Assembly (NCBI GenBank): GCA_020427345.1
Contig: JAGQOO010000002.1
Coordinates: 1-62,125, forward strand
Source: Phycisphaerales bacterium
GTDB taxonomy: Bacteria; Planctomycetota; Phycisphaerae; UBA1845; Fen-1342
DNA length: 62,125 nt
Reading direction: 5' to 3'
Numbering within the stretch: the stretch's first letter is position 1; each line of letters begins with the position of its first letter. Shown in pieces: positions 3,001 to 61,693 of this stretch. The notes beneath the pieces are model-generated. The model searched no databases, had not been told where the DNA came from, and saw nothing but the letters and a program-made list of their open reading frames with translations. The position numbers and the translations under genes were made by a program.

Positions 3001-6000
3001 CGTTATGCCCAACGAGACGGCGTCCCAACTGCGATTGACGAACGTGTCTCAAGCGGACGAAGCCGAATACAGCGTGCTGGTCTCGAACGCGTGCGGATTC
3101 GATTTCAGTGAGGGCGTCACATTAGACGTGCTGGTCGCGCCGCAGATCACCTCGCAGCCGCAAAACGCAACTCCCTGCCTCGGCGACCCGCTGACCCTCC
3201 GCGTAACCGCGACTGGCGACAATCTGCGTTATCAATGGCGTCGAAACGGCATCACACTGTTGGGGCGCACAGACCCCGAGTTGGCGATTGCGGCGGTCAG
3301 CGCCGCCGATGCCGGCAACTACACGGTGATCGTGTCCAACATTTGTGGCACGCGCACCAGTTCGATTGCGGCTGTAACCGTCGGCATCGGGCCGTCCGTT
3401 GGCACGACATCACCCAACCCGACCGTCTGCGTGGGCGAGCCGATCGTCCTCTCCGTAACGCCGTCGGGAACGGCGCCGTTGACCGTGCAATGGCAAAAGA
3501 ACGGACTGCCCGTCGCGAACGGGGCGACGCTGAACATCGCGTCTGCCTCCCCGAGTGACGCCGGCGAGTACACCGCGGTCGTCTCGAATACTTGCGGCAT
3601 CGCGCTGAGTCGCCGTATCCAGGTTATCGTCATCGTTCCCGCGACGATCGCGACCCAACCCGTCGCGCGGCGGATCTGCGAAGGAACCGCTCTATCGCTG
3701 AGCGTTATCCCTGCCGGAACGGAGCCGATTACGTTCCAGTGGCGTCGCGGCGGTCAGCCGATCGCCGGCGCGAATAGCGCGCAATATACGGTTGCTCAAG
3801 CGCAGATCGCTGACGCCGGACAATACGACGTCGTGGTCACGAACGCCTGCGGCTCGCAAACGAGCAACGCGGTTTCGGTCACGATCGACGCCCTGCCTGT
3901 CGTTGTGGCTGATCCGATCGACACGATCGGATGCCTCGGACAATCGGCAGGCTTCACTGTTTCGGCGACCGGCGGTGCGCCGCTGCGCTATCAGTGGCTA
4001 TTCAACGGCAACCCGATTGCCAACGCGACGCAGTCGAGCTTCACCATCGCTACGCTGACACCCTTGAACGCTGGCGCGTACGCCGTCCGCGTCTCGAATG
4101 ACTGCGGCTCGGTCGAGAGCGCCGCCGCGGACCTCGAAGTGCGCCTGCCGCCGACAATCTCGCAGCAGCCCGTGGGCGATTCAACCTGCGTCGGCGAGAT
4201 GGTCGTATTCTCGGTTCAGGCGAATGGCGCGCAGCCACTGATGTATCAGTGGCGCCGCGACGGCCAGCCGATCCCTAATGCGACGAACGCAGAGCTTACG
4301 ATCCCTTCGGCCCAACTCGGCGACGCCGGCTCGTACACGGTCGTCATCACAAACGAATGCGATCAGATCACCAGCGCGCCCGCCGTTCTGCAGGTCGGCG
4401 CGGTTCCGCAGATCGCCCAGCAGCCGCAATCCGGCGCATTCTGCCTTGGTCAGCCCGCCGATCTCTCAGTCGCCGTCTCAAATGACGCGACCGGTTTCCA
4501 GTGGCGCCGCAATGGCGCGCCGATCTTCGGCGCCCTGTCCGCCACGTATCACGTCAACAGTGTGACACCGGCGGACGCCGGCGCCTATGACGTGATCGTC
4601 TTCAACACCTGCGGGCAAACCATCAGCGCGGTCGCGACGATCACCGTTAATCAGCCGCCTACCATAACCACACAGCCACAGGGGCAGACGCTCTGCGAGG
4701 GCGACGGATTGTCGCTGAGCGTCGTCGCGAGCGCGGCGATTCCCAATATGTATCAATGGCGCCGCAACGGCACGCCGATTTCGGGCGCCAACCAGGCCCA
4801 ACTCACGATCAATCCGGTGGCGACGACCGACGCCGGAACATACACCGTGGTCGTGACGAACACCTGTGGTTCAACCACCAGCGCCGGCGCCGTTGTACAG
4901 GTGCGCGCGGGCGTGCGGATTACCCTGCAGCCGCAACCGATGAACGCCTGCGCCGGCCAGCCCGGAACGGTGACGTTCGCCGTCACGGCGACGGGCGCAT
5001 CGCCGCTTTCCTACCAGTGGCGGCGCAATGGCGCGCCGATTTCCGGCGCCAACTCGTCGTCCTTGATGATCCAGAATCCCACCGCCGCCAACGCCGGCGC
5101 ATATGACGTTGTGGTCACCAACACGTGCAACTCCCTGACCAGCCAGGCGGCGGCGCTGACCGTCGGCGAAGGCCCGATGATCACACAGCAGCCCGTCGCG
5201 ACAGATGCCTGCCCCGGGCAGCCGATTCAGCTTTCCGTCGTTGTCGCCAATACGGTCGGCGTGACCTATCAGTGGCGTAAGAACGGCACAGCGATTCAGA
5301 ACGCGACCAGCGCCACACTGACGATCCCGTCAGCGGGCGTCAGCGATGTCGGCATGTACGATGTCATCGTCACCGACATTTGCTCGTCCATTACATCCAG
5401 CGCCGCGCAAGTCACGGTCAACGGCGGCCTCGTCATCAACGGCCAGCCGCAGAACCAGACGGTGTGCCTCGGCTCGTCCGCCATGTTCAGCGTAACCGCC
5501 GGCGGCGCCCAGCCGTTCACCTATCAGTGGCGCCGCAACGGCCAGAACATCCCCAACGCGCAGTCGGCCAGCCTGCTGCTGCCGGTCGTCAGCCTGGCCG
5601 ACGCGGGAACGTACGATGTCGTCGTCGGCAATCGGTGCGGCTCGACAACCAGCGGTGCGGCCGTTTTGACAGTACGCACACCGCCCGGCATCACGCAGCA
5701 GCCGCAGAGCCGATCCGCGTGTCCCGGTGAGCCACTCACGCTCTCTGTCGTTGCGACCGGCGCCGCGCCGCTGTCGTTCGAGTGGAGGAGAAATGGCGTC
5801 GTCATCACCGGCGCGAACAGCGCCACGCTGAGTCTCGGCGCCGCTGACGCCGGCGACGCAGGCAGCTACGCCGTCACTGTTTCGAACGTCTGCGGCCAGG
5901 CGATGAGCTCAACCGCGACCGTAACGATCTTTGCGCCGGCGGTGATTGTGGAGCAGCCGGAAAGCCGCTTCGTCTGCCAGGAGCGCAGCCACACGCTGCG

Positions 6001-7591
6001 CGTCGTCGCCTCCGGGTCCGAGCCGATCTCGTACCAGTGGCACAAGAACGGGTCGCCCATCGGCGGCGCGAACGGCGATACGCTGATATTGACCAACCTG
6101 ACACCTGCGGACGCCGGGGACTATTCCGTCGACGTGTCAAACGCCTGCGGCATGGAATCCAGCGCGACGGCAACGCTCGACGTCTTCGAGTGCCCGCCGG
6201 TTCTTTGGGTAAACGTCAACGCCGCTCCGGGCGGCGACGGCTCATCGCCGGACTTGGCCCTGCAGCGCCTCCAGGACGCGATCGACCGCGTCGTCGACGA
6301 GGAAATCTGGGTCATGGCCGGCGTTTACAAGCCGACATTCAAGACGAACGTCTTCGATTCGCGCACCGCCACGTTCCGCCTGCGAAACGGCATCAAGATT
6401 TATGGCGGATTTGATGGCGACGAGTTCCAGCGCGAGGAGCGCGACCCGGCGCTCAACGCGACAATCCTCAGTGGCGACTTGAACGGCAACGACGGCGCCA
6501 ACTTCACCAATCGCACCGACAACAGCTATCACGTCGTCGACGCGACCGGGACTGACGCCGCTACGCTGCTCGACGGCATCCGCATCCGCGGCGGCTTCGC
6601 CAGCGCCCCGACGCCCGACAACCGCGGCGGCGGCCTTTACATCAACGGCGGCGACCCCACCGTGCACAACTGCGTGTTCTACGACAACGAAGCCACCACC
6701 GGCGCCGGCGCGTATGTCGGCCCCGGCGTGCCGGAGTTCACCAATTGCGAGTTTTCCGGCAACCGCGCGACGCTCGGCGGCGCGCTGTATGTCTTCATCG
6801 CCGATCCGATGATCGTTGACTGCTCGTTCATCAACAACATCGGCGCTAACAACGGCGGCGCCGTTTATCACTCGTTCAGCGCTCCGCACTACGTCAACTG
6901 CATCATGGCGGGTAACGCCTCAAGCACCGGTGGCGCCGTCTACAACCGCACGAGCAGCCCGCTGTTCACCAATTGCGACATCGTGCTGAACATGGCGACC
7001 GACGCGGCAGGCGGTGTTTTCACCTCTACCGGCGCGCCGGTCATCACCAACTGCATCGTTTGGGCGAATTCACGCGACGGCGCCATGGATCAGGCCGCGC
7101 AGGTCGCCGGCAACAACCCGGTCGTGACCTACACACTGCTCCAAGGCTGGACCGGCTCGCTCGGCGGCGCCGGCAACTTCAACGCCGACCCGCTGTTCGA
7201 AAACGCCGCCGGCATGGATTATCGACTTGCGCCCGGATCGCCCGCGATCGATCGCGGTAACGCCGACGCCATTCCAATGGAGATCGATACTGACTTTCTC
7301 GGTATGCCGCGCTTCGCCGATGATCCGGATACGCCGAACGCGGGCGTCGGCGACCCGCCGTTCGTTGACCTCGGCGCCATCGAGTTCGGCGTCGCCCTTC
7401 CCGACTGCCCGGCGGACATCAACGGCAACGGCCAGATCGATCTCGCCGACTTGTCCGCGCTGCTCGGTCCGTTCGGAACATGCGCCGGCGACCCGGGTTA
7501 CAGCGCAGCCGCCGACATTACCGGCGACAATTGCGTATCGCTGCCGGATCTGGCGGAGTTGCTGAGCGTCTTCGGCACGGATTGTCCGTAG
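2..7591 (+). CDS. Giant secreted subtilisin-like protease with beta-helix, 14 Ig-like repeats and dockerin-like C-terminus (5' partial)
   Basis: The frame is open at the left edge, so the start and signal peptide lie outside; about 2,529 residues are visible. A propeptide end comes first, followed by an S8 subtilase domain. Its catalytic Asp is in VLDDGV (codon near 218), the His in DNHGTWVAG (near 320) and the Ser in SGTSFATG (codon 815-817). From about 1005 to 2620 lies a right-handed beta-helix region with GGFSG and repeated GGA/N motifs. From about 2630 to 6190 I count 14 Ig-like repeats, each with a YQWRRNG-like core, a DAGxY motif and two Cys. A second beta-helix follows (about 6190-7390). 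The C-terminus is a dockerin-like EF-hand pair (about 7405-7588) starting at CPAD and ending DCP. Protease activity is well supported by the intact triad. The Ig and helix parts are presumably adhesive or extending; the substrate is unknown. Confidence 0.9.
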   Translation, partial: ANQLADAPEVRYCEPDFILTAHKHFIPNDSLFEDQWGLLNVGQADGTPGIDVDAPDAWDITTGDPGVIIAVLDDGVQQDHPDINQFPGADFTGQGTNGGPFNQCDNHGTWVAGCISARINNGPGVVGVAPTCRVMSARFNNAVPPCDVGNFQTSWLVNAMEFARTQGARVTNNSNGFAPISTIADKYSQLRDGGIIHFASAGNEASDGVNFPASLDSVNAVGAIDRAGARLAMSNYGHGIAFAAPGGEIVTTDRTGIDGDSPFDTHTVSGTSFATGYASGVAALLLSTNVNLTPGDVEKAMLQTCDDLGEPGYDETFGWGLVNARRVFDVPEAIRIYVNAGATGANDGSDWDNAFTNLADAVLAARASIIRSEIWVATGEYAPDQRRVPSDPRSVSFDLRPGIKIYGGFSGTETDLNQRNPLANPTILTGDLLGNDDPNGVDPALMTDNAYHVITIGFADDSTVLDGLLIQGGSATGADPNDLYGGGVLIRRSRPVFQDCRFERNYANRGGAVANRSDTGARFTGCAFSENAAIERGGAVYDDTAQASFSVCMFENNHSARAGAVYNVLDRTHFSDCDFVGNEATGNGRGGGLYNFASSNTIENLRFSGNRAGQGGGLFNDGASNVMSRLLFINNEATQSGGGAVITSGAPSLINASFFSNHAPSGGGAHVSNSSEAQIVNTIFSGNSADNGGALSSLLGRPRVRNSTFANNTATARGGAIAVSSGTNLVVVNTVLWGNSDSQGSLEGAQIANLDGINQIDTSYSIIQGLSALTGPGLRNADPRYRDEDGDDDVIGTVDDDLRLRPSSPAIDSGSNSALPADLADLDDDGDTAESLSHDLDNVPRRVNDTGTPDTGEGVPPIVDMGAYEVQIPCETPTFVSQPLAQTGCLGQSVVFSVQVESPFAVTYRWQKGGIDIPNANDRVLIINNISTSDAGSYRVVVANECDEVLSDAASLTIATAPQITGPPASREACEGDTVIFSVAASGTGPLTYQWRRNGVVMPNETASQLRLTNVSQADEAEYSVLVSNACGFDFSEGVTLDVLVAPQITSQPQNATPCLGDPLTLRVTATGDNLRYQWRRNGITLLGRTDPELAIAAVSAADAGNYTVIVSNICGTRTSSIAAVTVGIGPSVGTTSPNPTVCVGEPIVLSVTPSGTAPLTVQWQKNGLPVANGATLNIASASPSDAGEYTAVVSNTCGIALSRRIQVIVIVPATIATQPVARRICEGTALSLSVIPAGTEPITFQWRRGGQPIAGANSAQYTVAQAQIADAGQYDVVVTNACGSQTSNAVSVTIDALPVVVADPIDTIGCLGQSAGFTVSATGGAPLRYQWLFNGNPIANATQSSFTIATLTPLNAGAYAVRVSNDCGSVESAAADLEVRLPPTISQQPVGDSTCVGEMVVFSVQANGAQPLMYQWRRDGQPIPNATNAELTIPSAQLGDAGSYTVVITNECDQITSAPAVLQVGAVPQIAQQPQSGAFCLGQPADLSVAVSNDATGFQWRRNGAPIFGALSATYHVNSVTPADAGAYDVIVFNTCGQTISAVATITVNQPPTITTQPQGQTLCEGDGLSLSVVASAAIPNMYQWRRNGTPISGANQAQLTINPVATTDAGTYTVVVTNTCGSTTSAGAVVQVRAGVRITLQPQPMNACAGQPGTVTFAVTATGASPLSYQWRRNGAPISGANSSSLMIQNPTAANAGAYDVVVTNTCNSLTSQAAALTVGEGPMITQQPVATDACPGQPIQLSVVVANTVGVTYQWRKNGTAIQNATSATLTIPSAGVSDVGMYDVIVTDICSSITSSAAQVTVNGGLVINGQPQNQTVCLGSSAMFSVTAGGAQPFTYQWRRNGQNIPNAQSASLLLPVVSLADAGTYDVVVGNRCGSTTSGAAVLTVRTPPGITQQPQSRSACPGEPLTLSVVATGAAPLSFEWRRNGVVITGANSATLSLGAADAGDAGSYAVTVSNVCGQAMSSTATVTIFAPAVIVEQPESRFVCQERSHTLRVVASGSEPISYQWHKNGSPIGGANGDTLILTNLTPADAGDYSVDVSNACGMESSATATLDVFECPPVLWVNVNAAPGGDGSSPDLALQRLQDAIDRVVDEEIWVMAGVYKPTFKTNVFDSRTATFRLRNGIKIYGGFDGDEFQREERDPALNATILSGDLNGNDGANFTNRTDNSYHVVDATGTDAATLLDGIRIRGGFASAPTPDNRGGGLYINGGDPTVHNCVFYDNEATTGAGAYVGPGVPEFTNCEFSGNRATLGGALYVFIADPMIVDCSFINNIGANNGGAVYHSFSAPHYVNCIMAGNASSTGGAVYNRTSSPLFTNCDIVLNMATDAAGGVFTSTGAPVITNCIVWANSRDGAMDQAAQVAGNNPVVTYTLLQGWTGSLGGAGNFNADPLFENAAGMDYRLAPGSPAIDRGNADAIPMEIDTDFLGMPRFADDPDTPNAGVGDPPFVDLGAIEFGVALPDCPADINGNGQIDLADLSALLGPFGTCAGDPGYSAAADITGDNCVSLPDLAELLSVFGTDCP

Positions 7592-12063: not shown

Positions 12064-14556
12064 ATGCGACGTGATCTCTTGATCGGCCTCGCGGCCACCG
12101 GCCTGCTCGCGCTGTCTGCGCCGGCCGGAATCCAGTTCTCCGAGTCCGTCGACATTAGCGCCATCGGCGGGTCCCAGTCGTTTACCGCATCCGCGATCCA
12201 ACGCGGCTTTGACTCGCGCGCGAGCCAACTCGGCGAGCTCGGATTCGCGTTGCGCAGCGCCGCGAACGAGTTCGGCGCATATCCGGACAATTTCTCCGAG
12301 CTCTACTCGCTCGGCTACATCACGAACCCGTGCACTTTCTTCAATCCGGGCGATTCAGACTCACCTCCCGGCGACATCACCAACGACATCCCAAACGGCG
12401 CCGACAGCGCGCAAGTCAGCTTCGCATACCTCGCCGCCGGCCTGCCGGTCACCGGTCTTCCCGCAAACACCGTGCTGTTCATGGACAACTCGCCGGACAA
12501 CAACGGCGGCATGGGGCGCTGGGCTTACTACCACAGCGGCCAACTTGAGTTTGTGCCTGAGCCGAATTACGTGCTCGGCGCCGAAACCTTCGACGTTCGC
12601 GATTGCCCGATTGAACGGATCCGGCGCGGAACGACGACCTTCGATTTCAATTTTCCATTTGCGGCCGAAACAAACGTCGTATCCGGCTTCGCCCCGAATC
12701 GCCTGATCAGCACAATCGAGCACGGTTTCACGCAGGAGTACGCTGACGTCTTCGCCGCGGAGGGTTTCGGGTCCACGCAAAACACCGTTCGCGCGGCGGT
12801 CGCGGCTTCGGCGGTTGAGTCGCTCGGTCGCCTGGCGGGCCCCGCCGGTCCGGTCGTGCTGACGGCCTACCTGCGATTCGACACGACCGTCGCGGCGCCT
12901 TCTATCCCGGACAGCACCATCGATCGCGGCGGGCTCGACATGCTGTGGTACTACCAGGAATTCTCGAGCCCTTCGATTCGAACGCAGCTGTCAATCGGCT
13001 CAACACCATACGGCCCGTTTCTTGTCGGCCACCCAGCTTTCATCGAGTGCGAACTCTTGGGCGGTCATCCCGGCGGCGTGCCTGTGCGGCTGCGAGGCGT
13101 CGCCCAGATGACGCAAACCGTCAACGCTGAAACCGACCACGTTATGCAACTCGCATACAACAACGGCGTGTTGCTGGAAGTAATTCCGACCTCGACGCCC
13201 GGGCGGCTGATTCGCAGCTATGTTGACTGCGAGGCGCCCACCGATCTTGGCAATCGCACGGTCAAGTTTTTCGCGCCCCCCGGTTACTCCTACAGGCCCG
13301 GCAATCCCGATTTCCCACCGTTCCAGGTGTACATTCGCGGCGATGTGGACGAAGACGGCGATGTCGATAACGCCGATCGGTCTGCTTTCGCAGCCGTGTT
13401 TTCAGGCCAACTCGACAGCAATGACTACGCCGAGCCCGAGTTCGATCTGCTGGCCAATTTTGACTTCGACGGTGACGGCGACATTGACTGCGCCGACTGG
13501 ACCACGTTCGCCAACGACGCTTGGACGGAGGGCAATGCGCCGGTCGTGATCGCGCCTTGCGTTACGCCGACCTGGCTGCTCAGCGTGCCGGACAGCCCGG
13601 GTGGGTTTGTAAGCCGTTCGCCGGATCGTCGCGCGTTTGCCGATGGTGAAGTCGTCACGCTGGTCGCACATCCCCTGAGCGGTTGGCGATTCACGGGTTG
13701 GCGCGGAGAGGTTGACGCCGTCGGCGCCACGCTGAACCTCATCATGAACGCTGACCGAACCGTCGTGGCGACATTCGAGCGCATCGTCAATCGCGAGCGC
13801 CGCGAGGCCATCTGCCAGCCGCCGAACAGTGCCCAGTCGGAAGTCTACGGCGTGCGCGCGAGCCCGCTGATCACGCGTCTCGGATCGATCCCGACCGCGG
13901 AGAGCTTCATCGCCGACAGCAATGAGCCGATTATCGGTTTTCGCTGGTGGGGAATCGGCTACGACGATCTCGGCAAGCCGCATGACCTGGAGCCGACGTT
14001 TGATCTCGTGATTCGATCCGACAACAGCGGAACACCCGGCGCAGTGATAATCGCCACGCCGCTGCTGGATGTGGAGCGCGTCCGCACCGGCGAACGACTC
14101 AACATTCTCCGTCCGGCGCCGGACCTGATCTGGCAGGATCGCTACTCAGCCCTGTTGCCGGCTCCATTCGAACCCATGTCGGGGCAGCGGTATTGGGTTG
14201 AACTGACCGGGAGCATCGCCCGTCCGGACTCGAGATGGTGGTACTGGGCGTGGGAAACCTCCCCCGCCGGCGACGGAATCTGCTTCATCGACTACAAACG
14301 CGATGGCTACACGAATGCCGACCGCGCAAGCTACGACCTCGCGCTTTGCGTGCTGCGAAGCCGCTGCCCGGGCGACGCGACCGGCGATCGCATTGTGGAC
14401 CTAGCCGACCTCGCCCTGGTGCTGTCCACGTTCGGCTCGACCGCGGCAAGTCCGTTCTGGAACCCGGCGGCTGACCTCACAAACGACGGGATCGTCGACC
14501 TGTCCGACCTCGCCGAGCTGTTGTCCCGGTTCGGCTTGCCGTGCGAGACAGCCTAG
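12064..14556 (+). CDS. Secreted protein with InlB-type repeat and dockerin-like modules
   Basis: 830 residues of unknown function. An N-terminal signal peptide (MRRDLLIGLAATGLLALS) indicates export. The first half has no family I recognise. Around nt 13340-13520 is an internal EF-hand-like pair (DVDEDGDVDNAD and DFDGDGDIDCAD). Around nt 13570-13780 is a module resembling the divergent InlB B-repeat, ending in DRTVVATFE. The C-terminus carries a second dockerin-like pair (CPGDATGDRIVDLADLA and LTNDGIVDLSDLAELL) and ends LPCETA. It stands alone; the 132-base upstream gap has a weak TTGATC/TATGCT promoter candidate with a 20-base spacer. A structural or cell-surface role is inferred; no catalytic motif is visible. 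Confidence 0.8.
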   Translation: MRRDLLIGLAATGLLALSAPAGIQFSESVDISAIGGSQSFTASAIQRGFDSRASQLGELGFALRSAANEFGAYPDNFSELYSLGYITNPCTFFNPGDSDSPPGDITNDIPNGADSAQVSFAYLAAGLPVTGLPANTVLFMDNSPDNNGGMGRWAYYHSGQLEFVPEPNYVLGAETFDVRDCPIERIRRGTTTFDFNFPFAAETNVVSGFAPNRLISTIEHGFTQEYADVFAAEGFGSTQNTVRAAVAASAVESLGRLAGPAGPVVLTAYLRFDTTVAAPSIPDSTIDRGGLDMLWYYQEFSSPSIRTQLSIGSTPYGPFLVGHPAFIECELLGGHPGGVPVRLRGVAQMTQTVNAETDHVMQLAYNNGVLLEVIPTSTPGRLIRSYVDCEAPTDLGNRTVKFFAPPGYSYRPGNPDFPPFQVYIRGDVDEDGDVDNADRSAFAAVFSGQLDSNDYAEPEFDLLANFDFDGDGDIDCADWTTFANDAWTEGNAPVVIAPCVTPTWLLSVPDSPGGFVSRSPDRRAFADGEVVTLVAHPLSGWRFTGWRGEVDAVGATLNLIMNADRTVVATFERIVNRERREAICQPPNSAQSEVYGVRASPLITRLGSIPTAESFIADSNEPIIGFRWWGIGYDDLGKPHDLEPTFDLVIRSDNSGTPGAVIIATPLLDVERVRTGERLNILRPAPDLIWQDRYSALLPAPFEPMSGQRYWVELTGSIARPDSRWWYWAWETSPAGDGICFIDYKRDGYTNADRASYDLALCVLRSRCPGDATGDRIVDLADLALVLSTFGSTAASPFWNPAADLTNDGIVDLSDLAELLSRFGLPCETA

Positions 14557-14579
14557 GCCCTAACTTTCGACAACACCTG

Positions 14580-14607
14580 TTTACAGATCGGTTGTCATAC
14601 ATACAAT
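14580..14607 (+). promoter_or_regulatory. Promoter of the recombinase gene, leaderless type
   Basis: TTTACA (14580-14585), a 16-base spacer and TACAAT (14602-14607) match sigma-70 boxes. The -10 box is only 8 bases from the ATG at 14616, so the transcript would start at or next to the start codon. No Shine-Dalgarno sequence is present. Confidence 0.6.
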
Positions 14608-14615
14608 GCAACCCC

Positions 14616-15278
14616 ATGGCGACATGGCGGCTATCGCGCGAGTCATTCCTCGAAGCGAGTGAGATTGCCCATCTTTTGCGTCACCTGGCGTCCAGGGGAG
14701 ACTTGGATCGCCTGATCATCACAACACTACTTGGAACAGGCCTCCGCAACGGCGAGCTCTGCGGATTGACCGTCGCCGGGCTGGACGGCCAGGGTTGCCG
14801 CTTGTGCGTCGAACTCGGCACGAAAACTGATCGGATACTATACATTCCAGGCGCTTTGGCGGGTGAGTTGAAGCAGGCGGCAATCGGTCGCAACTCGCAT
14901 GAGCCGCTGATCCCAAACTCCCGCGGCCGACCGTTCACGCCGAGCGTGTTGTACCGGCGCGTGCGGCGGATACTGACCGATGCCGGTTTTGGGGCAGTCG
15001 CAAGTGTTCAACTCCTCCGCCACACCTACGGCGTCATGGCCTATCGGGCAACGGGTGGGAATTTGCTATTCGTTCAGCGGCAAATGGGCCATGCCCATCC
15101 GATGATCACCGGTGTGTACGCGGAATGGGGCAATGACGATCCCGCCACCCTTGCGGAGCGCGCGGGCCAGGAGTTGGCCCTGGATGCGGGGCAAGGACTT
15201 GTCCGAAACGAAATGGCCGTCAAGGCGCCTATTGCGGCGCCGCGGTCGCCACCGCCATTTCGCCCCGAGTGGGATTGA
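14616..15278 (+). CDS. Short tyrosine recombinase (phage integrase family), catalytic domain only
   Basis: 220 residues, compared with about 300 for XerC/XerD. The protein starts almost directly at the catalytic fold (SEIAHLLRHLASRGD), so the usual N-terminal SAM-like core-binding domain is missing. Visible catalytic elements are the first Arg in GTGLRNGELCGL, the LLRHTYG box with the second Arg, GHAHPMITGVY with the third-box His, and the nucleophile Tyr in GVYAEW. The His expected two residues before LR (HxLRH) is Gln here. An upstream in-frame start at 14541 would lie inside the previous gene and before the promoter, so 14616 is preferred. The gene converges on ruvB with 24 bases between stops. 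It could be a real minimal recombinase or the remnant of a longer integrase; no att sites or other mobile genes were seen. Confidence 0.8.
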   Translation: MATWRLSRESFLEASEIAHLLRHLASRGDLDRLIITTLLGTGLRNGELCGLTVAGLDGQGCRLCVELGTKTDRILYIPGALAGELKQAAIGRNSHEPLIPNSRGRPFTPSVLYRRVRRILTDAGFGAVASVQLLRHTYGVMAYRATGGNLLFVQRQMGHAHPMITGVYAEWGNDDPATLAERAGQELALDAGQGLVRNEMAVKAPIAAPRSPPPFRPEWD

Positions 15279-52239: not shown

Positions 52240-52716
52240 ATGCGGCGACGGTATTTCGATTCCAACCCACACGGTCGGCTGAACTTGCTGCGCCTCGCGG
52301 AGTTCGAGGAGCGGCTGGGACGCGCGTTGCCGGGTGGATACCGCCAATATCTGATCCGCCACAACGGCGGCCTGCCCACCCCGCGCCAATTCGCCAGGAC
52401 CGGAGATCGAGGGGAAATCGCCGCTCTGTTCGGTATCCACCGCGGCCCGCGCGATGAGCGCCTTCAGGTCGTTGCGCAAACAGCGCCTGACGCCTTGCCG
52501 ATCGGCCGACTCGCGGACGGTCGCCTGCTCGTCTTGTGCCTGCGCGGCGCCGAACGGGGCTCGATCCTCATGGAGGGCGAATCAACGCTGATTTCGCGTT
52601 CTTTTGCGGGATTACTGGCGTTGCTCGGCGAAATATGTGAGGATGTGAGATCGCCGCAGGAAGCGGCGCCGTCTTTGTCGATTCGCGCCGCTGCGCGCGG
52701 CTCGATTGTCGCCTGA
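52240..52716 (+). CDS. SMI1/KNR4 (SUKH) family protein
   Basis: 158 residues of the SUKH fold: FEERLGRALPGGYRQYLIRHNGGLP near residues 20-45 is the hallmark of the family, followed by IAALFGIHRGP and a central VLCLRG strand and helical tail. Many bacterial members are immunity proteins against secreted toxins, others regulate cell-wall genes. Start at 52240 with a GAGGG site. It is followed after 17 bases by the amidase gene, probably one transcript. No polymorphic toxin gene is visible beside it. Confidence 0.85.
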   Translation: MRRRYFDSNPHGRLNLLRLAEFEERLGRALPGGYRQYLIRHNGGLPTPRQFARTGDRGEIAALFGIHRGPRDERLQVVAQTAPDALPIGRLADGRLLVLCLRGAERGSILMEGESTLISRSFAGLLALLGEICEDVRSPQEAAPSLSIRAAARGSIVA

Positions 52717-52733: not shown

Positions 52734-53558
52734 ATGCAACGGATTGCGCGACTTCTCCCAATCGCCGTCTTGCTTGCTATCACGGGTTGTTCAACGCAAA
52801 CGCGAACCACGACCGTCGTTCGGAAGACGCCGGTCCGGCCGACGCGCCCGATCATGCGCGCGAACCGGTATGTGACGCCGCTGCATCGATATCAACCGGT
52901 ACCCGTGCCGCCGCCGATGCGCCCACCCACCGCGCCTCCGAGCACATCTGACTCGATCGGCGGCGTCAACGTCGCGGCTATCGCCCCGCCCGGCGGGATT
53001 CAACGCTGGCGGTGGAAGGAAATCGTCATCCACCATTCCGCGACGCCGGTCGCGTCGATTCAAAGTATGGACAACGAACATCGCAATGTTCGCAAGTGGA
53101 AGGACGGCCTCGGATACCACTTCGTCATCGGCAACGGCGTAAAGACCGGCGATGGCCAGATTTGCGCCGGCAATCGCTGGATGCGGCAGATTCAGGGCGC
53201 TCACTGCAAGTCCGACGGCAACTATTACAATGAGCACGGCATCGGCATCTGCCTGATCGGCAACTTCGAGGAATCGCGCCCTTCACCGGCGCAGCTCGCG
53301 TCGTTGCGCGGCCTGATTCGCTACTTGTGCATGCAAACCGGCGTTTCGCCAACCCATATTGCGGGGCACGGCGCCATCACCGGCAAAACCGAATGTCCCG
53401 GTCGATTCATGGACGTCGCATCCGTGCGTGTCAGCGTGGAGCGTATGTTGGCGGACGGATCGGACGAGACAACCGAGCCAGTAGCAATTCGGGACCTCGA
53501 CGCGCTCGATCGGATGAGCGACGACGAATTGTGGGACGCGCTAAGCGGTCAACTTTAG
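52734..53558 (+). CDS. N-acetylmuramoyl-L-alanine amidase lipoprotein
   Basis: 274 residues. The signal peptide ends in lipobox AITGC. A long Pro-rich linker (about residues 30-80) leads to an amidase_2/PGRP domain with the zinc ligands His-His in IVIHHSAT, the later His in AGHGAITGKTECPG and the Cys there; the LGYHFVIGNG and GIGICLIGNFE motifs are typical. It would split the MurNAc-L-Ala bond in peptidoglycan. A helical tail follows. It lies 17 bases after the SUKH gene and converges on a membrane protein gene 5 bases away, without a terminator between. Confidence 0.9.
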   Translation: MQRIARLLPIAVLLAITGCSTQTRTTTVVRKTPVRPTRPIMRANRYVTPLHRYQPVPVPPPMRPPTAPPSTSDSIGGVNVAAIAPPGGIQRWRWKEIVIHHSATPVASIQSMDNEHRNVRKWKDGLGYHFVIGNGVKTGDGQICAGNRWMRQIQGAHCKSDGNYYNEHGIGICLIGNFEESRPSPAQLASLRGLIRYLCMQTGVSPTHIAGHGAITGKTECPGRFMDVASVRVSVERMLADGSDETTEPVAIRDLDALDRMSDDELWDALSGQL

Positions 53559-54138: not shown

Positions 54139-56442
54139 TTATCGGACATTTGGATCCGATATCCGGTCCAAGGCCCGCCGATCCGGAAACAGCACGAGCA
54201 GGGCCGGCAGCAAAATGAGGTCCCCCACCAGAGCAGCCGCCAACGCCACCATCGACATTGCCGCGAATGTTCGAATCGAGGGTAATTCGGAAAGCAATGC
54301 CACGCCGAAACCGGCCATCAGCACAGCCGTTGTCGTCAGCACCGCCGACCCGACCGCGACAAAGCTGCGATGCACAGCCGCCCGGGGATCACCGTCGATG
54401 GCCACCTCGCGGCGAAACCGGCTCAGCAGGTGAATCGTGTCGTCCACCGCGACGCCAAGACAAACACTGAAGACAATCACGCTCGACAGTTGCAGAGGCA
54501 TACCGACGATCCTCAACCCCGCCGCCGCGACGAGCAGCGGAAATGCGTTCGGCACAACGCTGATCAGACCAAGCCGAATCGAGCGTAGTTCGAGCGTCAT
54601 CACGCCAAATATCACGATGGCGGCCACGATCAGGCTGCGTGCCAGGTCGGAGATCATGCCCAATGTCATCTTGACCGCCACGACCGTCGAGCCGGCCAGG
54701 CGGAAACGGATATCTGGCGTCCTCGACTCCAATCCCTGCAGGGCGGCCGCGACGCGTTCCAACTCCGGCTGCGCCGCGGCGGATCCGCAATCCGGAATGC
54801 GCCCCATGACGATTGCCCGGCGACGCTCCGGATTCACAAAACGCGCCAGCACCGTATTGGGTACGGCGGGAAGCAGCGCGGCGCGCGCGTCCGGGTCCGA
54901 GCCCGGCAGTGATAGCGCCACACTCAGCAACGACAACGGCGCGCTGATCAAATCGGACCGCTCGAAGACGGCATGCGTGTCACTCAGCGCCGCCAACAGC
55001 TCAGGTGAGTCCCACGACAACGATGGGGAATAGTCGAGCACGGCATACACGCGCAGCGCGCCCCCAAACGCCCGATCACACTGCTCGATCGCCATGGCTG
55101 TCTCACTGCCACTCGGCAGGGTTTCGCGGATCTGATTGTCCGCGCGCAGTCCCGACGCCAGCCACGCAAGCGCAGCGCAAACCGCAAGCCCAATGCCCAC
55201 AACCACGCGAGGCCGTGCCGTTATGAGCCGCGCCAACTGTTCCAACCCACGCATCGCGCGCCGCGACGAACCTGTCGGCGTGTTACGCCCGAGACGCCCC
55301 CCAAGCCGCGTGCCACCCATTAGCGGCGTGAACGCAATGACCGCGACAAACGCGATCAGCGTCGCAACCGCGCACGCCAACCCGAAGCGGCGAATGACCG
55401 ACACGTCAGCCGTGGCCAGGGACGCGAACCCCGCGGCTGTCGTGATCGATGTTAGAAAGCAAGGAAGCGTCAGTCGCCGCAGCGCATCCATGGAAGCCGA
55501 CCGTGGCGAAACCCCGAGCGCCGTGGCGTGCCGCATGTGGTGAATCAGGTGAACCGCGTCCGCAAAGCCGATCATCAGCACCAGTGGCGCCATGATCGTG
55601 TTAATCACATTGACCGGTTCGCCCGCCAGGCCCATCGCTCCCATGGCCCAGAAAGCGCCCAACAAGGCGGCCGGAGCCACGATCAGCGTTGGCGCAATTC
55701 GACGAAACACCAGGAGGGCCATGGCAAATCCGGCGACGCCGCCAACGGTCAGGAACCTCCTCTGCTGGCGCTCAAGCATCGTGTGAATGTCCACACGAAC
55801 CGGCGGAAGTCCCGTGAGTCGCCAGCCGAGCCCGGAATCGCGCATCGCTTCGCCGGCCACCCGACGCAGGTCCGCAACAACAGGCCGAAACCGATCGCCC
55901 GCCGGACGACGCATATGCGCAATCACCATTGTTGTGCGAGCGTCTGCCGACAACAGCCGTTCGGCGACCAGCGGATGTCGCAACGCGACCTGACGGGATT
56001 GGACGAGTGCTGCCGCGTCCGCATTCGCCGGCACAAGCGAAGTCGGGATGGCGCCCGTTGCGAATATCGGTATGTCGAGCAAGCTATGCACGCCCCGCAC
56101 CGAACTGACTTTGCGCAGGCCGCTCGTGAGCCGCCGCAAGCCGCCGATGCCCGCCGGCGAAAAGACGTCGCCCTCAATCAGGAAAATGCAGTCTGTATCG
56201 GTGTCGCCAAAGTCGCGCGCCAGCTCGGCGACGAGCAGCGCCGCCTCATCGTGCGAGCGGAAGAGCGTGCCGAGGTCGTTTTCGAGTCGTAGGCGAGAAA
56301 CGCCGAAAGCCGCAAGCGCCGTGAGGAGCGCCAGCAGTATCGCCACAAGGCGGCGGTGGCGGTCAAACCACCGCGCCCAACGATCAACGACGCCACCCGC
56401 CGGTTGGCTGGAATCAGCCGCATCGATCTCGCGACCGTTCAC
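54139..56442 (-). CDS. RND/MMPL-family exporter
   Basis: 767 residues, two halves of about six membrane helices each with large extracytoplasmic loops, the MMPL/HpnN-like layout. VVDRWARWFDRHRRLV at the N-terminus precedes helix 1; FADAVHLIHHMRH and CLGVAVDDTIHLLSRFRRE are the paired GxxxD-type proton-relay motifs in helices 4 and 10. The start is a GTG only 6 bases after the ammonia-lyase stop; no good SD except GAGG overlapping the previous stop, so translation is probably coupled. It likely exports a lipid or the product linked to the lyase, but the cargo is not evident. Confidence 0.85.
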   Translation of the reverse strand: MNGREIDAADSSQPAGGVVDRWARWFDRHRRLVAILLALLTALAAFGVSRLRLENDLGTLFRSHDEAALLVAELARDFGDTDTDCIFLIEGDVFSPAGIGGLRRLTSGLRKVSSVRGVHSLLDIPIFATGAIPTSLVPANADAAALVQSRQVALRHPLVAERLLSADARTTMVIAHMRRPAGDRFRPVVADLRRVAGEAMRDSGLGWRLTGLPPVRVDIHTMLERQQRRFLTVGGVAGFAMALLVFRRIAPTLIVAPAALLGAFWAMGAMGLAGEPVNVINTIMAPLVLMIGFADAVHLIHHMRHATALGVSPRSASMDALRRLTLPCFLTSITTAAGFASLATADVSVIRRFGLACAVATLIAFVAVIAFTPLMGGTRLGGRLGRNTPTGSSRRAMRGLEQLARLITARPRVVVGIGLAVCAALAWLASGLRADNQIRETLPSGSETAMAIEQCDRAFGGALRVYAVLDYSPSLSWDSPELLAALSDTHAVFERSDLISAPLSLLSVALSLPGSDPDARAALLPAVPNTVLARFVNPERRRAIVMGRIPDCGSAAAQPELERVAAALQGLESRTPDIRFRLAGSTVVAVKMTLGMISDLARSLIVAAIVIFGVMTLELRSIRLGLISVVPNAFPLLVAAAGLRIVGMPLQLSSVIVFSVCLGVAVDDTIHLLSRFRREVAIDGDPRAAVHRSFVAVGSAVLTTTAVLMAGFGVALLSELPSIRTFAAMSMVALAAALVGDLILLPALLVLFPDRRALDRISDPNVR

Positions 56443-56448
56443 GAGGAG

Positions 56449-57969
56449 CTACGCCTCGCCGCGAGCCACGCGCCGCAGCGGTTCGCTTTCGCGCAGCAGC
56501 TTCAGACACGTCTGGATGTCGGCGCCGAATTCGCGGTCTTCCTCCGCGTGAGGAATCGTGGCGCGAATCACATCTCGGGCGGCAGCCGGCCCCGCGCCGG
56601 GGCGCAACGGATCGCGATAGTCCATCGCCTGCGCCGCGCAGAGCATCTCGATTGCCAGTACGGTTTCGGCGCGGTCGATCACTTCGTACAGCTTCAGCGC
56701 CGCCGTCGCGCCCATGCTGACGTGATCCTCCTGACCGAGTGATGTCGGGATCGTGTCGACCGAAGCCGGTGTCGCCAGCACTTTGCACTCATTGACGAGT
56801 GCGGCGGCCGTGTATTGCGGAATCATGAAGCCGCTGTTCACGCCGGTGTCGCGCATCAACAGCGTTGGCAGATCATCCTGCCCGAGGAGCAGCAGGTACG
56901 TGCGCCGCTCCGAGATGCTTGCCAAGTCAGTGAGGGCGATCGCCAGATAGTCCATGACGCCCGCAAGCGGCGCCCCGTGAAACGCGCCGCCGCTGATGAA
57001 GTCGTCATCGAAGATGAGCGGATTGTCGGTCACACTGTTGATTTCGCGCCCGACAACCGCGCGCCCATGTTCAAACGCGTCGCGCACGGCCCCGTGCACC
57101 TGCGGCGCGCAACGCAGCGAATACGGATCCTGCACCTTGCCACACTGCGCGTGCGATCCGAGGATTTCGCTGTCGCGCATGTGCCGTCGCACCTTTTCTG
57201 CGACATAAATCGCGCCCGGATGCGGCCGTGCGGCGTGCAGCCGTGCGTCCATCGGCCGCACGCTACCTAATTGCCCTTCCAGTGACATGCACAGCGTCAA
57301 GTCGGCGAGATCCAGCAGGCGCGCCGCGCGCACGCAAATATTCGCCGCATACGCGCTCATGAACTGCGTGCCGTTGATCAGCGCCAGTCCCTCCTTCGAC
57401 GCCAACGCCAGCGGCTCCCCCAGTTTCAAGCGCCGGTGCGTCTCCAGAGACGCCATCCGCCCCAGCGGGCTGACCATCTCGCCGCGCCCGATCAGCGGCA
57501 AGGCCAGATGCGCCAACGGCGCAAGGTCGCCGCTGGCGCCAAGGGACCCGCGCGTCGGCACGACCGGCAGCGCGTCAGCGTTCAACCACGCGACCAGCCG
57601 GTCAACAAGCTCGGTCCGCACGCCGCTATGCCCCCGCAGCAGCATGTTGATCTTGAACAACAGCATCCAACGCACAATCGCCGCGGGCGTCTCGGGCCCA
57701 ACACCGACGGCGTGCGAAATCAGTAGATTGTGCTGAAGTTGTTCGAGCCGATCGGCGGGAATCCGCTTGTTCTTCAAGTGACCGAATCCCGTGTTTACGC
57801 CGTAGATCGGCTCATCACGGCCGCGCAGCGCGTCCACCTTGGCGCGACAGTCGCGCACGCGCCGTAATCCCGCTTCGGCCAGCGCGATCTGCAAAGGCCG
57901 GCCGAGCGCCGCATCAAGCGCAGGCCAGTCGAGCGCGTCCGCTCCAACTGTCAGGCGAAATGGCGTCAT
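56449..57969 (-). CDS. Histidine/aromatic amino acid ammonia-lyase
   Basis: 506 residues. The MIO-forming Ala-Ser-Gly lies in RGSLGASGDLAPLAH; YGVNTGFG supplies the catalytic Tyr, QDPYSLRC the Gln/Tyr/Arg set and QEDHVSM the Glu, all as in histidine ammonia-lyase. The substrate-selecting pair is Ser-His (ISHAVG), the histidine-type rather than the His-Leu of tyrosine lyases. Yet the otherwise near-invariant GGNFHAEP is GGAFHGAP here. No other hut gene (hutU, hutI, hutG) is nearby, so a catabolic role is not supported. The ATG at 57969 overlaps the stop of the upstream gene (ATGA). It sits between a PDZ protein and an RND exporter, which could mean product export. Confidence 0.9.
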   Translation of the reverse strand: MTPFRLTVGADALDWPALDAALGRPLQIALAEAGLRRVRDCRAKVDALRGRDEPIYGVNTGFGHLKNKRIPADRLEQLQHNLLISHAVGVGPETPAAIVRWMLLFKINMLLRGHSGVRTELVDRLVAWLNADALPVVPTRGSLGASGDLAPLAHLALPLIGRGEMVSPLGRMASLETHRRLKLGEPLALASKEGLALINGTQFMSAYAANICVRAARLLDLADLTLCMSLEGQLGSVRPMDARLHAARPHPGAIYVAEKVRRHMRDSEILGSHAQCGKVQDPYSLRCAPQVHGAVRDAFEHGRAVVGREINSVTDNPLIFDDDFISGGAFHGAPLAGVMDYLAIALTDLASISERRTYLLLLGQDDLPTLLMRDTGVNSGFMIPQYTAAALVNECKVLATPASVDTIPTSLGQEDHVSMGATAALKLYEVIDRAETVLAIEMLCAAQAMDYRDPLRPGAGPAAARDVIRATIPHAEEDREFGADIQTCLKLLRESEPLRRVARGEA

Positions 57970-60839
57970 GGTTTTGAGCTGCGCTCCCATTCCTTGATCG
58001 TCGCCTCGACGTCGTCGATGAACGCTTCGACGCCCGGAAGGCCCCTGGCCTCAAACGCCGCGGACACCATCGCGCGAATCTCGGCGCGCGACATGGATCG
58101 ATACCACTCGTCCGGCAGCGCTATGTTCTGGATTCCCATTTCCTCCACTTCGCCCGTCTCAAGATCAATCCGGTAAGAGGCGCCGCCCTCCTCGGGCAGG
58201 CGAACACAGTACGCGAAGCGCTGGTCGCCACGCTGATAGGGCAACGTCTCCGGAATCACGACCGGATATGGAGCATCGCCCGGCAACGCCAGCCGCCGCA
58301 CTGATTCGTCAATCGTGTCCAGAATGACCACACCGCGCGTCGTCAGCAATAGCGCTCGTGGCGCCGCATCGTCGGGCGCCGTCAGCATCCGCACAAAAAA
58401 CCGGAACGGCGGCTCCGCGCCGATACGCCCCGCCAGCCAATCGGATGTCCAGACGCGCTGGCCGACCGTGTCGATCAACGCCGTCGGCCCGCCGCGAAAC
58501 GACGCGTACGCAAACCGGGGATTGTCCGCAAGCGATCGCGTCACGCCCAGCTCGGGCAGGTCGGGGTCGGATACGTATTCGTGATTGGCGCCGACCTCGG
58601 CACGCAGAAACTCGCCCGACTCTTCATTCTGATCCGGCGGCGAACAAGACGCCGTCATTTCACTGAAGAACGGCGCGACGATGCGGTCGAACGAGGTCGC
58701 CTGCCCGAACGTGAGATTCAGCCGCACCGGCGTTTCCACCCCCGGCGTGATCTCCACGACACGCCGTCGGCCATACGCCCAAACACGGCCCGTCTTCTCC
58801 TCGCGCCCGATCCAGGGCCAGGCGAACGGATTCGGAAACCACGTCGGCGTCGGAGCCGGGATCTCGCGCGTGACGCCCGTTTCGCCGTCGAGGCTGTACA
58901 GGCGCCTGTCGCGTCCCAGCACAACCCACACTCCCTCGCGCCCCGTCGCAGGGACCGCCAGTAATGGTCGATCAAGTCGCGCATCGCCACCGACGTAGAG
59001 CGTTCCCCCCGGATCAAGCCCCGCCTGCGCGCGGCGAAACGCAATTGTGGTCTTCAGCGCGGCGGCGTCCGGTTCGTCACTCCAATCGGCCAGCGCCTGC
59101 TCCGCCCCAATGAGGTCATCGCCAGCCAAAGCGCTCAGCGTGTCAATCAAAGCCAGCCAGCGCTCGCGCGACTCGCTCGGCGGGCACTGCGCAAGCCGCT
59201 GCCGCGCAGACAACATCACATCCGGATCAGGCGCTTCGCGGACATATTCGAGCATAGCCAGGGCCCGCGCAAACGGCGGGGCGCCATCATCCGACATCGC
59301 CGGCGCCAGCTTCGCCAGGTCGTTGCGAATCGCGTCGAAGTTCCCCTCGCGCAGCGCGAACAACATCCAGCCCGCGTATGTGCCCAAAGCGGCGTGACCT
59401 TCCCGCTCAAACGTCTCCAACGCCTCACGGCGCTGGTCGGCGTCGGGAAACTGGTAAACAAAGAACGCGACAATCGCCGCCACGCGCGGATTGCGAATCG
59501 CCGCGCTCGGGTCCTCCTCACTCGGCGGTCGCTTCAGGACACCCATCGCGTCATCAAACAGACGGGACAGCGCTTCCGCCTCCTCGCCGCGCAGGAACGG
59601 CAACCACGCGTCGGTGTCAACGCGCAGCCACGTAGCTGTCGCCGCGTTCGATCGCCGCAGGACGGCGCTGCGCGGCTCGATCATCCGCGCGCACTCCGAG
59701 CGCAAGTCAAGTTCGTTGAACATCCACGCCGTTACCGCCAGCATATTGCCGGCAATGATGTCGCGGTCAGACCCGCCACCCCGCATCAGGTCGCGATAGT
59801 CCTCGGCCCAGATCGCCGCCGAGCGCGTCGCCGCCGATATGAAACGTCCCGCAGGCACGAGCACGCGCTGTACGCGCAAGTCCGGATCACGCTGACGCAA
59901 CGGCGGCTCATCCAGGTCATTCACCGCGCGCTCGGCGTCGCGCGTCAGCGCGTTCCACTCCAGCGCGAAAGGCGCCTTGCCCGGTCCGCTCAAGTCCAGC
60001 GGGGACGGGTCGCTCCACTCATTGCCGGAGCCGCCGATCGGCACGGCGTTTGCCGCGCCGCGCTCGACGCGTTCCATCAGCCGCTCGGCCGCGTCGCCAT
60101 CTCCCGCCGTAAACGCGATCCGAGCGCGCAGCAACCGCGTAAACTCGCGCTCGTCAATGTCCTTGGCGTCTTGCAGAAGCTCGTTCGCACGCTCAGCCTG
60201 CCCAGATGCGTATAGGCGCGTCGCCGCCGCGAATATCTCCCCCTGAGGCGTCACATAGTCCCGCACGTCTCCCGAGAGCGACAGTGGCCCCAGCCGAACC
60301 GGGCCGACCTCGCGCGGGCCGTCCTCGCCAAACACGCGCAATGTGGCGCCCTGTTCAAAGTCGCGCAGCCGATCGCGAAACTCCTCCTGGTTCGATATCC
60401 GCCACGGTCCGACGTGCGTGACAATGTCCCCGGGTCGCAGGCCGCTTTCCGCGTACGCCCGCAAGATCAGCGCGCCGCGCGTCGGCGGGCGAATGTTGTC
60501 GAGTATGTAGCGCAGCCGATAGCAGATCTCGGTGTTCGTCTCGCGCGCCAATCGCGCGCGGAGGTCCGGCAAGACCGAGGGTCCCAGCGCAATGATCCGC
60601 CGTGTCGCGGCCTGGCGCTGGGCGTAGCTCTCATTTCCGAGCGCATCAATCAAAGGCCCAAGTTCGCTTGCAAGTGGCCCCTTCGACCGAGGCTGGGTCT
60701 TATTGGGCGGCGCGTCAACGGCGATCCCGAAAGTCGCCCGGGGCGTCGCGCCGATCAGGGCCGCGACGGCGAAGAGCCAACTGTGCGAGCGGAAACGCCC
60801 GGGAATCGAGGGCATCTCAAAATACGGTGAATGTCGCAT
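57966..60839 (-). CDS. Exported PDZ-domain protein with helical repeats
   Basis: 957 residues. A signal-like N-terminus (SWLFAVAALIGATPRATFG) is followed by about 60 residues of HEAT-like helices (LGNESYAQRQAATRRIIALG), then a PDZ-like module near residues 115-170 (GALILRAYAESGLRPGDIV, EEFRDRLRDFEQGATLRVF). Long helical repeats follow (TPR-like, about 200-560), then a beta-propeller-like half (GREGVWVVLGRDRRLYSLDG, GRVWAYGRRRVVEI). The C-terminal helix ends KEWERSSKP. No catalytic motif is visible. The stop overlaps the lyase start, so the three genes form a translationally coupled set. Start 60839 or 60815; GGAG lies 10 bases before the former. Function unknown, possibly a scaffold. Confidence 0.7.
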   Translation of the reverse strand: MRHSPYFEMPSIPGRFRSHSWLFAVAALIGATPRATFGIAVDAPPNKTQPRSKGPLASELGPLIDALGNESYAQRQAATRRIIALGPSVLPDLRARLARETNTEICYRLRYILDNIRPPTRGALILRAYAESGLRPGDIVTHVGPWRISNQEEFRDRLRDFEQGATLRVFGEDGPREVGPVRLGPLSLSGDVRDYVTPQGEIFAAATRLYASGQAERANELLQDAKDIDEREFTRLLRARIAFTAGDGDAAERLMERVERGAANAVPIGGSGNEWSDPSPLDLSGPGKAPFALEWNALTRDAERAVNDLDEPPLRQRDPDLRVQRVLVPAGRFISAATRSAAIWAEDYRDLMRGGGSDRDIIAGNMLAVTAWMFNELDLRSECARMIEPRSAVLRRSNAATATWLRVDTDAWLPFLRGEEAEALSRLFDDAMGVLKRPPSEEDPSAAIRNPRVAAIVAFFVYQFPDADQRREALETFEREGHAALGTYAGWMLFALREGNFDAIRNDLAKLAPAMSDDGAPPFARALAMLEYVREAPDPDVMLSARQRLAQCPPSESRERWLALIDTLSALAGDDLIGAEQALADWSDEPDAAALKTTIAFRRAQAGLDPGGTLYVGGDARLDRPLLAVPATGREGVWVVLGRDRRLYSLDGETGVTREIPAPTPTWFPNPFAWPWIGREEKTGRVWAYGRRRVVEITPGVETPVRLNLTFGQATSFDRIVAPFFSEMTASCSPPDQNEESGEFLRAEVGANHEYVSDPDLPELGVTRSLADNPRFAYASFRGGPTALIDTVGQRVWTSDWLAGRIGAEPPFRFFVRMLTAPDDAAPRALLLTTRGVVILDTIDESVRRLALPGDAPYPVVIPETLPYQRGDQRFAYCVRLPEEGGASYRIDLETGEVEEMGIQNIALPDEWYRSMSRAEIRAMVSAAFEARGLPGVEAFIDDVEATIKEWERSSKP

Positions 60840-61021: not shown

Positions 61022-61693
61022 CTACCGCCGCAGGCGCAGCACCAGCGGACCAAAAGCCAGCAGGATCAGACTGCCCGGCTCCGGAACCAGCACGAGATCC
61101 GCAAGGGCGCCTGAGCCCCCCAGATTGACCTTGAAGCTGTTGAACTGTGCGGCGTCAAAGCCGATCGTCTGAACGGCGCCGTCAGCAGTCGGAGTAATCG
61201 GGGCCGTGCCTACCTGGAGGCCGTCCTTGAAGAACTGGATCAGACCCGGCTCTTCATTGTCGAGCAGCGTGAAGCGCGCTTCCGTCAGCACGAATGTCAT
61301 GTCAAACGTGAATGATCCGGCCGGCTGGCGGCCCTCGTCGTCAGGATCGATAACGTTACCGTTCATATCGAACACGGCGTCCTCGGCGATGATCAGCACG
61401 TTGTCATAGGCGACCGTATTGCTCGGGTGCAGGCCGGGATTCGGTGTGCGAAGATCGAAGTCACCACCTGTCGGATTCGCGCTGTCGAACGCGATACCCA
61501 GATCAGGGTGCCCCGGAGCCAGGTTCTCGGTCGTGATCGTGACGCCGTATGCGGCGTATTCGTTGTCGATTACCTGGCCGGTCTGGATGGGGTTGCCCAT
61601 CGCGTCGGTGTCAAAGTCGATGTGAATCGGATCGGCGACGGCGAAGCCGGCGCCCAGACCGGCAAGGCCGGCCAAAGCGGCAAACAGTTTCAT
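61022..61693 (-). CDS. PEP-CTERM sorting-signal secreted protein
   Basis: 223 residues. Signal peptide MKLFAALAGLAGLGAGFAVA, a beta-rich body (IHIDFDTDAMGNPI, FTFDMTFVLTEARFTLLD) and a C-terminal PEP-CTERM signal: VPEPGS, a short hydrophobic stretch (LILLAFGPLV) and the basic end LRLRR. Such signals are processed by exosortase; no exosortase gene is in this window. Its sorting route therefore differs from the nine dockerin-tagged proteins. The start at 61693 is set by a GGGGGA ribosome site; the longer open frame to 61969 runs into the terminator region of the rRNA gene. Function unknown. Confidence 0.85.
   Translation of the reverse strand: MKLFAALAGLAGLGAGFAVADPIHIDFDTDAMGNPIQTGQVIDNEYAAYGVTITTENLAPGHPDLGIAFDSANPTGGDFDLRTPNPGLHPSNTVAYDNVLIIAEDAVFDMNGNVIDPDDEGRQPAGSFTFDMTFVLTEARFTLLDNEEPGLIQFFKDGLQVGTAPITPTADGAVQTIGFDAAQFNSFKVNLGGSGALADLVLVPEPGSLILLAFGPLVLRLRR

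Follow-up and report, generated by a model that had tools for sequence, protein, structure and literature searches.

The closest described relatives of the enzyme discussed here are the histidine ammonia-lyases (HAL, HutH). In the HAL of G. kaustophilus, changes at Y52, H82, N194 and E411 abolish activity, and the characterised HALs named in the same article have Ala or Ser at residue 85 (PMC11432326). FlxA, the tyrosine ammonia-lyase of flexirubin clusters, belongs to the same superfamily. At one selectivity motif its residues, too, are HAL-like (PMC3992019), so that the substrate of a lyase such as ours is not settled by sequence alone. The genes for histidine breakdown may stand together: in a sister family of Phycisphaerae (locus L127) they form the run hutH-hutU-hutI. 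As to the spacing of bacterial genes in general, pairs with a short overlap or gap (-8 to +10) encode subunits of heteromeric complexes more often than distant pairs do (30.4% versus 6.8% in E. coli), and translational coupling via such overlaps is described in the same source (PMC10666635).

The locus considered here departs from this scheme. It lies in a window of 62,125 nucleotides, which is the whole stretch analysed and one contig of a 3.5-Mb draft genome (84% complete) of a Phycisphaerales bacterium. A sequence-only reading had pointed to three consecutive genes, and the ORF listing confirms them, all on the minus strand: a PDZ-type protein (57966..60839, 957 aa, ATG start), an ammonia-lyase of the MIO type (56449-57990 at full opening, 513 aa, ATG) and a transporter of the MMPL/RND type, HAE3-like (54139..56442, 767 aa, GTG start). 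The contig ends 1.3 kb past the PDZ gene. We consider it probable that the lyase is a HutH and that it forms a conserved unit of two genes with the PDZ protein; the transporter is outside this unit.

The lyase can be classified with some precision. With the hutH equivalog model TIGR01225 it reaches 589.3 bits (cut-off 539.15), with NF006871 607 bits (cut-off 524), and its best match in the PDB is the histidine ammonia-lyase 1gkm, which we take to be the enzyme of P. putida. All 11 catalytic positions compared with 1gkm are identical in the alignment: Tyr53, His83, Ala142-Ser143-Gly144, Asn195, Gln277, Tyr280, Arg283, Phe329 and Glu414, numbered by counting along the printed alignment. The Ala-Ser-Gly triad, which forms the MIO cofactor, is encoded at 57529..57537. 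We take Tyr53, His83, Asn195 and Glu414 as the equivalents of the four residues of the G. kaustophilus enzyme mentioned above (PMC11432326). Among 14 positions compared with 1gkm only position 85 differs, being Val here and Ala there; the same Val85 is found in five sister lyases that adjoin hutU. Two of the PDZ-linked lyases were scored with the hutH model and reached 589.3 and 590.8 bits, versus 646.7 for a lyase from a sister hut operon. The enzyme is thus of the HutH type, and we infer that it acts on L-histidine.

The tree of 85 lyase sequences agrees with this assignment. The 13 PDZ-linked lyases form a single clade with a support of 100/100, nested inside Phycisphaerae lyases that belong to two sister families in the same order. 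The same 85 rows make up the residue table; repeat fetches of the same loci and the partial lyase of G025 were dropped, every fourth of the loci L058-L111 was kept (L072 being one of these), and the row of G020 is a fragment that lacks the N-terminus. The labels A, B and C for the types of lyase are our own; they were assigned from the identity with the query and from the tree.

Further HAL-like lyases turned up on the way. A second one, 37-40% identical, stands beside or near the present type in G067 (C259; L119 7176-10882), G093 (C458; L023) and G014 (C24; L138 4027-11614). It is divergently oriented in G067 and G093, and the copies of G067 and G014 pass the hutH cut-off. A third type, with an open frame of more than 600 aa, occurs in G002 (C60), G013 (C14) and G015 (C3; L163, L165 and L166 for the three). 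In G013 and G015 the match breaks near residue 330 of the query, and two copies, scored over their matched parts, fall short of the hutH cut-off (499 and 495 bits, with 539 required).

If the lyase is a HutH, the remainder of the pathway has to be sought elsewhere. The window was scanned with Pfam at E limits of 0.1, 0.01 and 1e-5; the scan covered 36 ORFs of at least 90 aa, from position 113 in the first to 61022-61690 as the last, and found no hut gene among them besides the lyase. In the same genome hutI is over its cut-off on a different contig (C433), and hutU is represented by a fragment at the edge of contig C174. The relatives offer a similar picture. A match to urocanase is present in 13 of the 14 family genomes that have this lyase, and hutI is over the cut-off in 13. 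No other lyase was detected in 12 of these genomes, 11 of which have both hutU and hutI. The dispersal is real and not just a matter of broken contigs, since in G023, a genome of 3.9 Mb on a single contig, the lyase is found at about 0.24 Mb, urocanase at about 3.02 Mb and hutI at about 3.19 Mb. Most simply, the lyase of the window type would serve as the functional HutH in a pathway whose genes are dispersed.

Outside the family, lyases of the same type were found in 46 genomes with 52-62% identity. In 15 of them a match to urocanase is found on the strand of the lyase at a distance of no more than 2.6 kb, and in 12 of these it is within 0.65 kb. That relatives might keep the lyase inside a full hut operon had been named as the result that would speak against a separate small pathway. 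It proves true for part of the relatives outside the family, with L127 as the complete example; inside the family the genes are dispersed. None of the 46 genomes contains a full-length PDZ protein.

Could the locus nevertheless be the remnant or a variant of an aryl-polyene or flexirubin cluster? The idea is suggested by the fact that the lyase and MMPL genes adjoin. It is confronted with a score of 284.2 bits in the FlxA model, for which the cut-off is 700, and with the scan of the 36 ORFs, which yielded no polyketide, ketosynthase or acyl-carrier gene, as the sequence-only reading had noticed for the neighbourhood. We regard the link as exceedingly improbable and have rejected it.

The transporter itself is a sound MMPL protein. 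It matches the Pfam family with 105 bits (cut-off 20.5), and has acidic residues in hydrophobic segments, of the kind used by RND pumps. None of the 16 NCBIfam families listed is matched above its cut-off, TIGR00921 for instance giving 188.7 bits with 351.9 required. Its GTG begins 6 bases past the stop codon TAG of the lyase, precisely as had been noticed before. The arrangement had been read as a possible export pathway, in which the lyase would produce an unsaturated acid (urocanate, cinnamate or coumarate, say) and the MMPL protein would export it with the help of the PDZ scaffold. The comparison with relatives does not favour the proposal. Of 12 testable loci, the window's own is the only one in which the MMPL gene comes next after the lyase; the 12 comprise 11 of the synteny set, from which L140 was left out because of a contig edge, and G020. 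MMPL proteins with 40-50% identity occur in seven relatives (G003, G004, G014, G037, G068, G085 and G112, the copy of G003 being partial and at a contig end), and the stretches fetched around them (L146-L150, L155 and L156) show no match to the lyase or the PDZ protein. For urocanate there is also a route onwards, since the genome has hutI and hutU, the latter at least in part. With a lyase of the HutH type and a transporter that keeps its place in no other testable locus, the export pathway appears very unlikely. The MMPL gene is rejected as a conserved third gene; it looks like a chance neighbour in this one genome.

Some other genes of the window are mentioned here for completeness. A subtilase of 2492 aa with many Ig-like domains is encoded at 113-7591 (plus strand). 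A repeat protein (Flg_new_2; 12064-15278, plus strand) overlaps a gene of the phage-integrase type. At 52240-52716 (plus strand) there is a SMI1/KNR4 (SUKH-1) protein, adjoined at 52734-53558 by an N-acetylmuramoyl-alanine amidase gene; proteins of the SMI1/KNR4 type are often immunity proteins.

The order PDZ gene-lyase, by contrast with the position of the transporter, is kept throughout. The PDZ protein is present in 16 of the 27 family genomes, and the lyase follows it in all 14 that have the lyase. Three of these 14 loci are partial: of the PDZ protein, the contig of G009 contains the C-terminal part only, and of the lyase, those of G020 and G025 contain only a part. Of the three-gene order that was to be checked, the first two members thus hold in 14 of 14 genomes and the third does not.

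The junction of the two genes deserves attention. In the window an internal ATG at 57969 overlaps the stop codon TGA of the PDZ gene (57966-57968) and forms the sequence ATGA (57966..57969). This ATG is favoured as the start of the lyase because the same geometry is available in the relatives; the more likely enzyme has, in consequence, 506 aa (56449..57969). A start codon of the lyase (ATG, GTG or TTG) is available at -4, i.e., as NTGA, in 12 of the 14 pairs; of the remaining two, one has a start at -1 (TAATG) and one a gap of 3 bases. The genes of the relatives were called with a purpose-made ORF caller, not an annotation pipeline, and this caller tends to open frames too early. As a control, 74 close same-strand pairs in the family loci were inspected. 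An in-frame start at -4 is available in 22 of them, namely in 11 of the 13 PDZ-lyase pairs and in 11 of the 61 others; as the loci are related, the pairs are not independent. The overlap is more than chance would give. Gene order and a -4 or -1 overlap retained in the relatives support the coupled, operon-like arrangement that had been proposed for the locus, as far as the first two genes are concerned.

The surroundings of the pair are not conserved to a similar extent. Within six genes of it, the 14 loci contain 107 gene families, the PDZ and lyase families included. Clustering places these two in 13 loci each, the missing ones being fragments. The next most shared are two families found in 4 of 14 loci each, one LOG-like and the other an amidohydrolase, as judged by Pfam from one member each. 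Downstream of the lyase there is no conserved neighbour across the loci compared, and in 8 of 12 loci the called gene on this side runs in the opposite direction, one of the 8 being at a contig edge.

Upstream, no promoter-like site was found 5' of the PDZ gene; for promoters as for terminators, the scan yielded no more sites than shuffled sequence. The PDZ gene is preceded, at a distance of 182 bases and in the same orientation, by a gene (61022-61690, minus strand) whose product matches a PEP-CTERM tail below the cut-off (14.7 versus 20.7 bits). In G007, G003, G014, G011 and G018 a divergent gene of one family stands upstream of the PDZ gene; it is absent from the window, and its copy in G007 is LOG/lysine-decarboxylase-like.

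How the two genes are distributed can be read in more than one way. Of the 13 family genomes that lack this lyase, 11 lack the PDZ gene too, which means that the two tend to co-occur. All 13 have another HAL-like lyase, its type being assigned by identity and gap pattern alone for genomes outside the tree (G001, G005, G017 and G024 among them). The other two keep the PDZ gene. In G018 the contig stops too soon after it to show a lyase; in G019 some 5 kb 3' of the C-terminal part of the PDZ protein are free of a lyase, and a search of the whole draft (82% complete) revealed none of this type.

The pairing could be purely historical: in the ancestor of the family, hutH would have ended up next to a gene that has nothing to do with it and, for want of start signals of its own, would have kept this place. 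The single origin of the linked lyases in the tree, the solitary PDZ gene of G019, the unconserved downstream neighbours and the 11 of 27 family genomes that do without both genes and carry other lyase types would fit. The joint absence from 11 of the 13 lyase-less genomes speaks rather for a bond between the two, but joint loss is also what one expects of neighbours. We rate this history as possible, though not as the favourite; it is compatible with the identification of the lyase as HutH.

The PDZ protein proved to be the less ordinary member of the pair. It had been described as a PDZ/helical-repeat protein that could not be recognised, and this description holds in all its parts. Pfam finds no family above cut-off in the window's own copy, and no family library named it. 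PDZ_6 matches 6 of 14 family members with an E of 0.01 or better, the window copy not being among them, HEAT_2 matches 4 of 14, and the family profile matches the PDZ domains of DegQ and DegP. The predicted model (pLDDT 84.9, pTM 0.84) bears out the helical repeats. It starts with HEAT-like helices (residues 57-116) and a PDZ domain (about 120-185), together encoded at 60285..60671, continues with an alpha-solenoid (residues 199-606; 59022..60245), for which weak matches of the TPR type were obtained, and ends with propeller-like strands (residues 627-905; 58125..58961) and a helical tail. When the last part was modelled alone, the same elements appeared with a pLDDT of 85.8. Invariant residues number 9 in the HEAT part, 6 in the PDZ domain, 43 in the solenoid, 31 in the propeller-like part and 2 in the tail; the N-terminus has none.

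A convincing structural relative of the whole protein was not found with Foldseek or VIA. Foldseek gave E values down to 7.8e-05 with TM-scores near 0.1, VIA a Z of at most 8.7, a level rated as common. The C-terminal part alone fared better in Foldseek (E down to 2.8e-06, TM-scores of 0.18-0.29 among the matches listed), and in VIA it resembled beta-propellers with a Z of up to 9.6 over 115 residues, which corresponds to about three blades. The matching structures are mostly propeller proteins. The TM-scores are low and the matches partial, and therefore we call this part propeller-like and nothing more.

In the genomes searched, full-length homologues of the PDZ protein are restricted to the family. 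Of the 397 genomes of the class sample, with two first-look candidates scored per genome, 40 match the profile at an E of 1e-10 or better. The long matches are those of 14 family members; the other 26 cover profile positions 8-180 only, i.e., the HEAT and PDZ part. In the phylum sample of 294 genomes, with at most seven candidates scored per genome, the C-terminal part has a match in a single genome, the window's own. A spread of the protein through the wider class or phylum was considered and rejected, as long matches in these samples occur in family members only.

All 14 N-termini of the PDZ proteins are signal-peptide-like, with a hydrophobic stretch ahead of the HEAT helices (12-residue mean of about 1.9 or more), whereas the 12 complete N-termini of the lyases reach 0.48-1.62 by the same measure. 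Of 381 called ORFs used as control, however, 36% attain 1.9 within their first 75 residues, and export is therefore likely rather than demonstrated. Judging from the N-termini, the PDZ protein is probably exported.

This bears on the possibility that the PDZ protein interacts with HutH directly or regulates it, that the two assemble during translation and that a new kind of HutH complex results, which would again be compatible with the HutH assignment. The NTGA overlap available in 12 of 14 pairs, the enrichment of complex subunits among closely spaced genes (PMC10666635) and the fact that each of the 14 lyases is accompanied by the PDZ protein can be invoked in its favour. Yet the PDZ protein, if exported, would reside in another compartment than HutH, which weakens a direct functional link, with the reservation that the control ORFs impose; and G019 has the PDZ gene without the lyase. 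A direct complex is, in our view, unlikely.

We prefer, then, the HutH with its conserved PDZ-lyase unit, and it might work as follows. The first gene probably yields an exported, adaptor-like protein composed of HEAT helices, a PDZ domain, an alpha-solenoid and a propeller-like domain. The second would yield a cytoplasmic HutH, its translation being coupled to the first via the 4-base NTGA overlap. Judging from this geometry, a ribosome that has finished the PDZ protein may re-initiate at the overlapping codon, and PDZ protein and HutH would thus be made in a set ratio. HutH would convert histidine to urocanate with release of ammonia; degradation of the urocanate would then fall to HutU and HutI, which are encoded elsewhere in the genome. 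The MMPL transporter presumably landed downstream in this genome only; by its position it is probably co-transcribed.

What the PDZ protein does can be said only tentatively. It may act outside the cytoplasm, as a binding protein or a scaffold, in amounts tied to the breakdown of histidine; such an adaptor role is favoured by the probable export signal and by the fact that the domains recognised are of the binding type only, and even so we hold it with reserve. A bolder idea is that it is a dedicated partner of histidine breakdown, kept in a fixed ratio with HutH by stop-start coupling, which either binds HutH directly or, outside the membrane, acts as a sensor or collector of histidine, peptides or urocanate. 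We deem it unlikely. If it were true, it would add a kind of component that is not known from any hut system.

The enzyme of this locus is ordinary. The novelty is its large partner, found so far in one bacterial family. The tight register of PDZ gene and lyase, while the other neighbours are scrambled, provides the PDZ protein with a concrete link to a pathway. The locus also contains a warning: a lyase beside an MMPL gene should not be read as a secondary-metabolite cluster. What remains is a small, lineage-specific oddity. Among the matches listed for the open-access literature, and judged by title and start of the abstract, no report of a HutH-PDZ pair in planctomycetes was found; nor did that literature yield a paper on the degradation of histidine or amino acids by Phycisphaer- organisms in metagenome-assembled genomes.

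Compared with known systems, the lyase shares with HutH, as represented by 1gkm and TIGR01225, the family score, the MIO triad and the 11 catalytic positions, and its genome has hutI and part of hutU. It differs in its Val85, in the lack of hutU and hutI beside it in the window, and in coming, with an overlap of 4 bases, after the gene of an unrelated protein of the secreted type. The hut operons of the sister families contain lyases of the same group, but they have urocanase 3' of the lyase and dispense with the PDZ protein. FlxA is a member of the same superfamily and resembles HAL at one motif (PMC3992019); the window lyase is far below the FlxA cut-off, and the polyene genes are absent nearby. 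The transporter matches the HAE3/MMPL branch of RND transporters (TIGR00921, HpnN) at the level of the family and over its length, but is below the cut-off of every NCBIfam subfamily listed. The PDZ protein, finally, has domain folds in common with the PDZ domains of DegP and DegQ and with the propellers of YncE, BamB and YVTN proteins; the matches are weak and confined to single domains, and a protease domain was not found in it.
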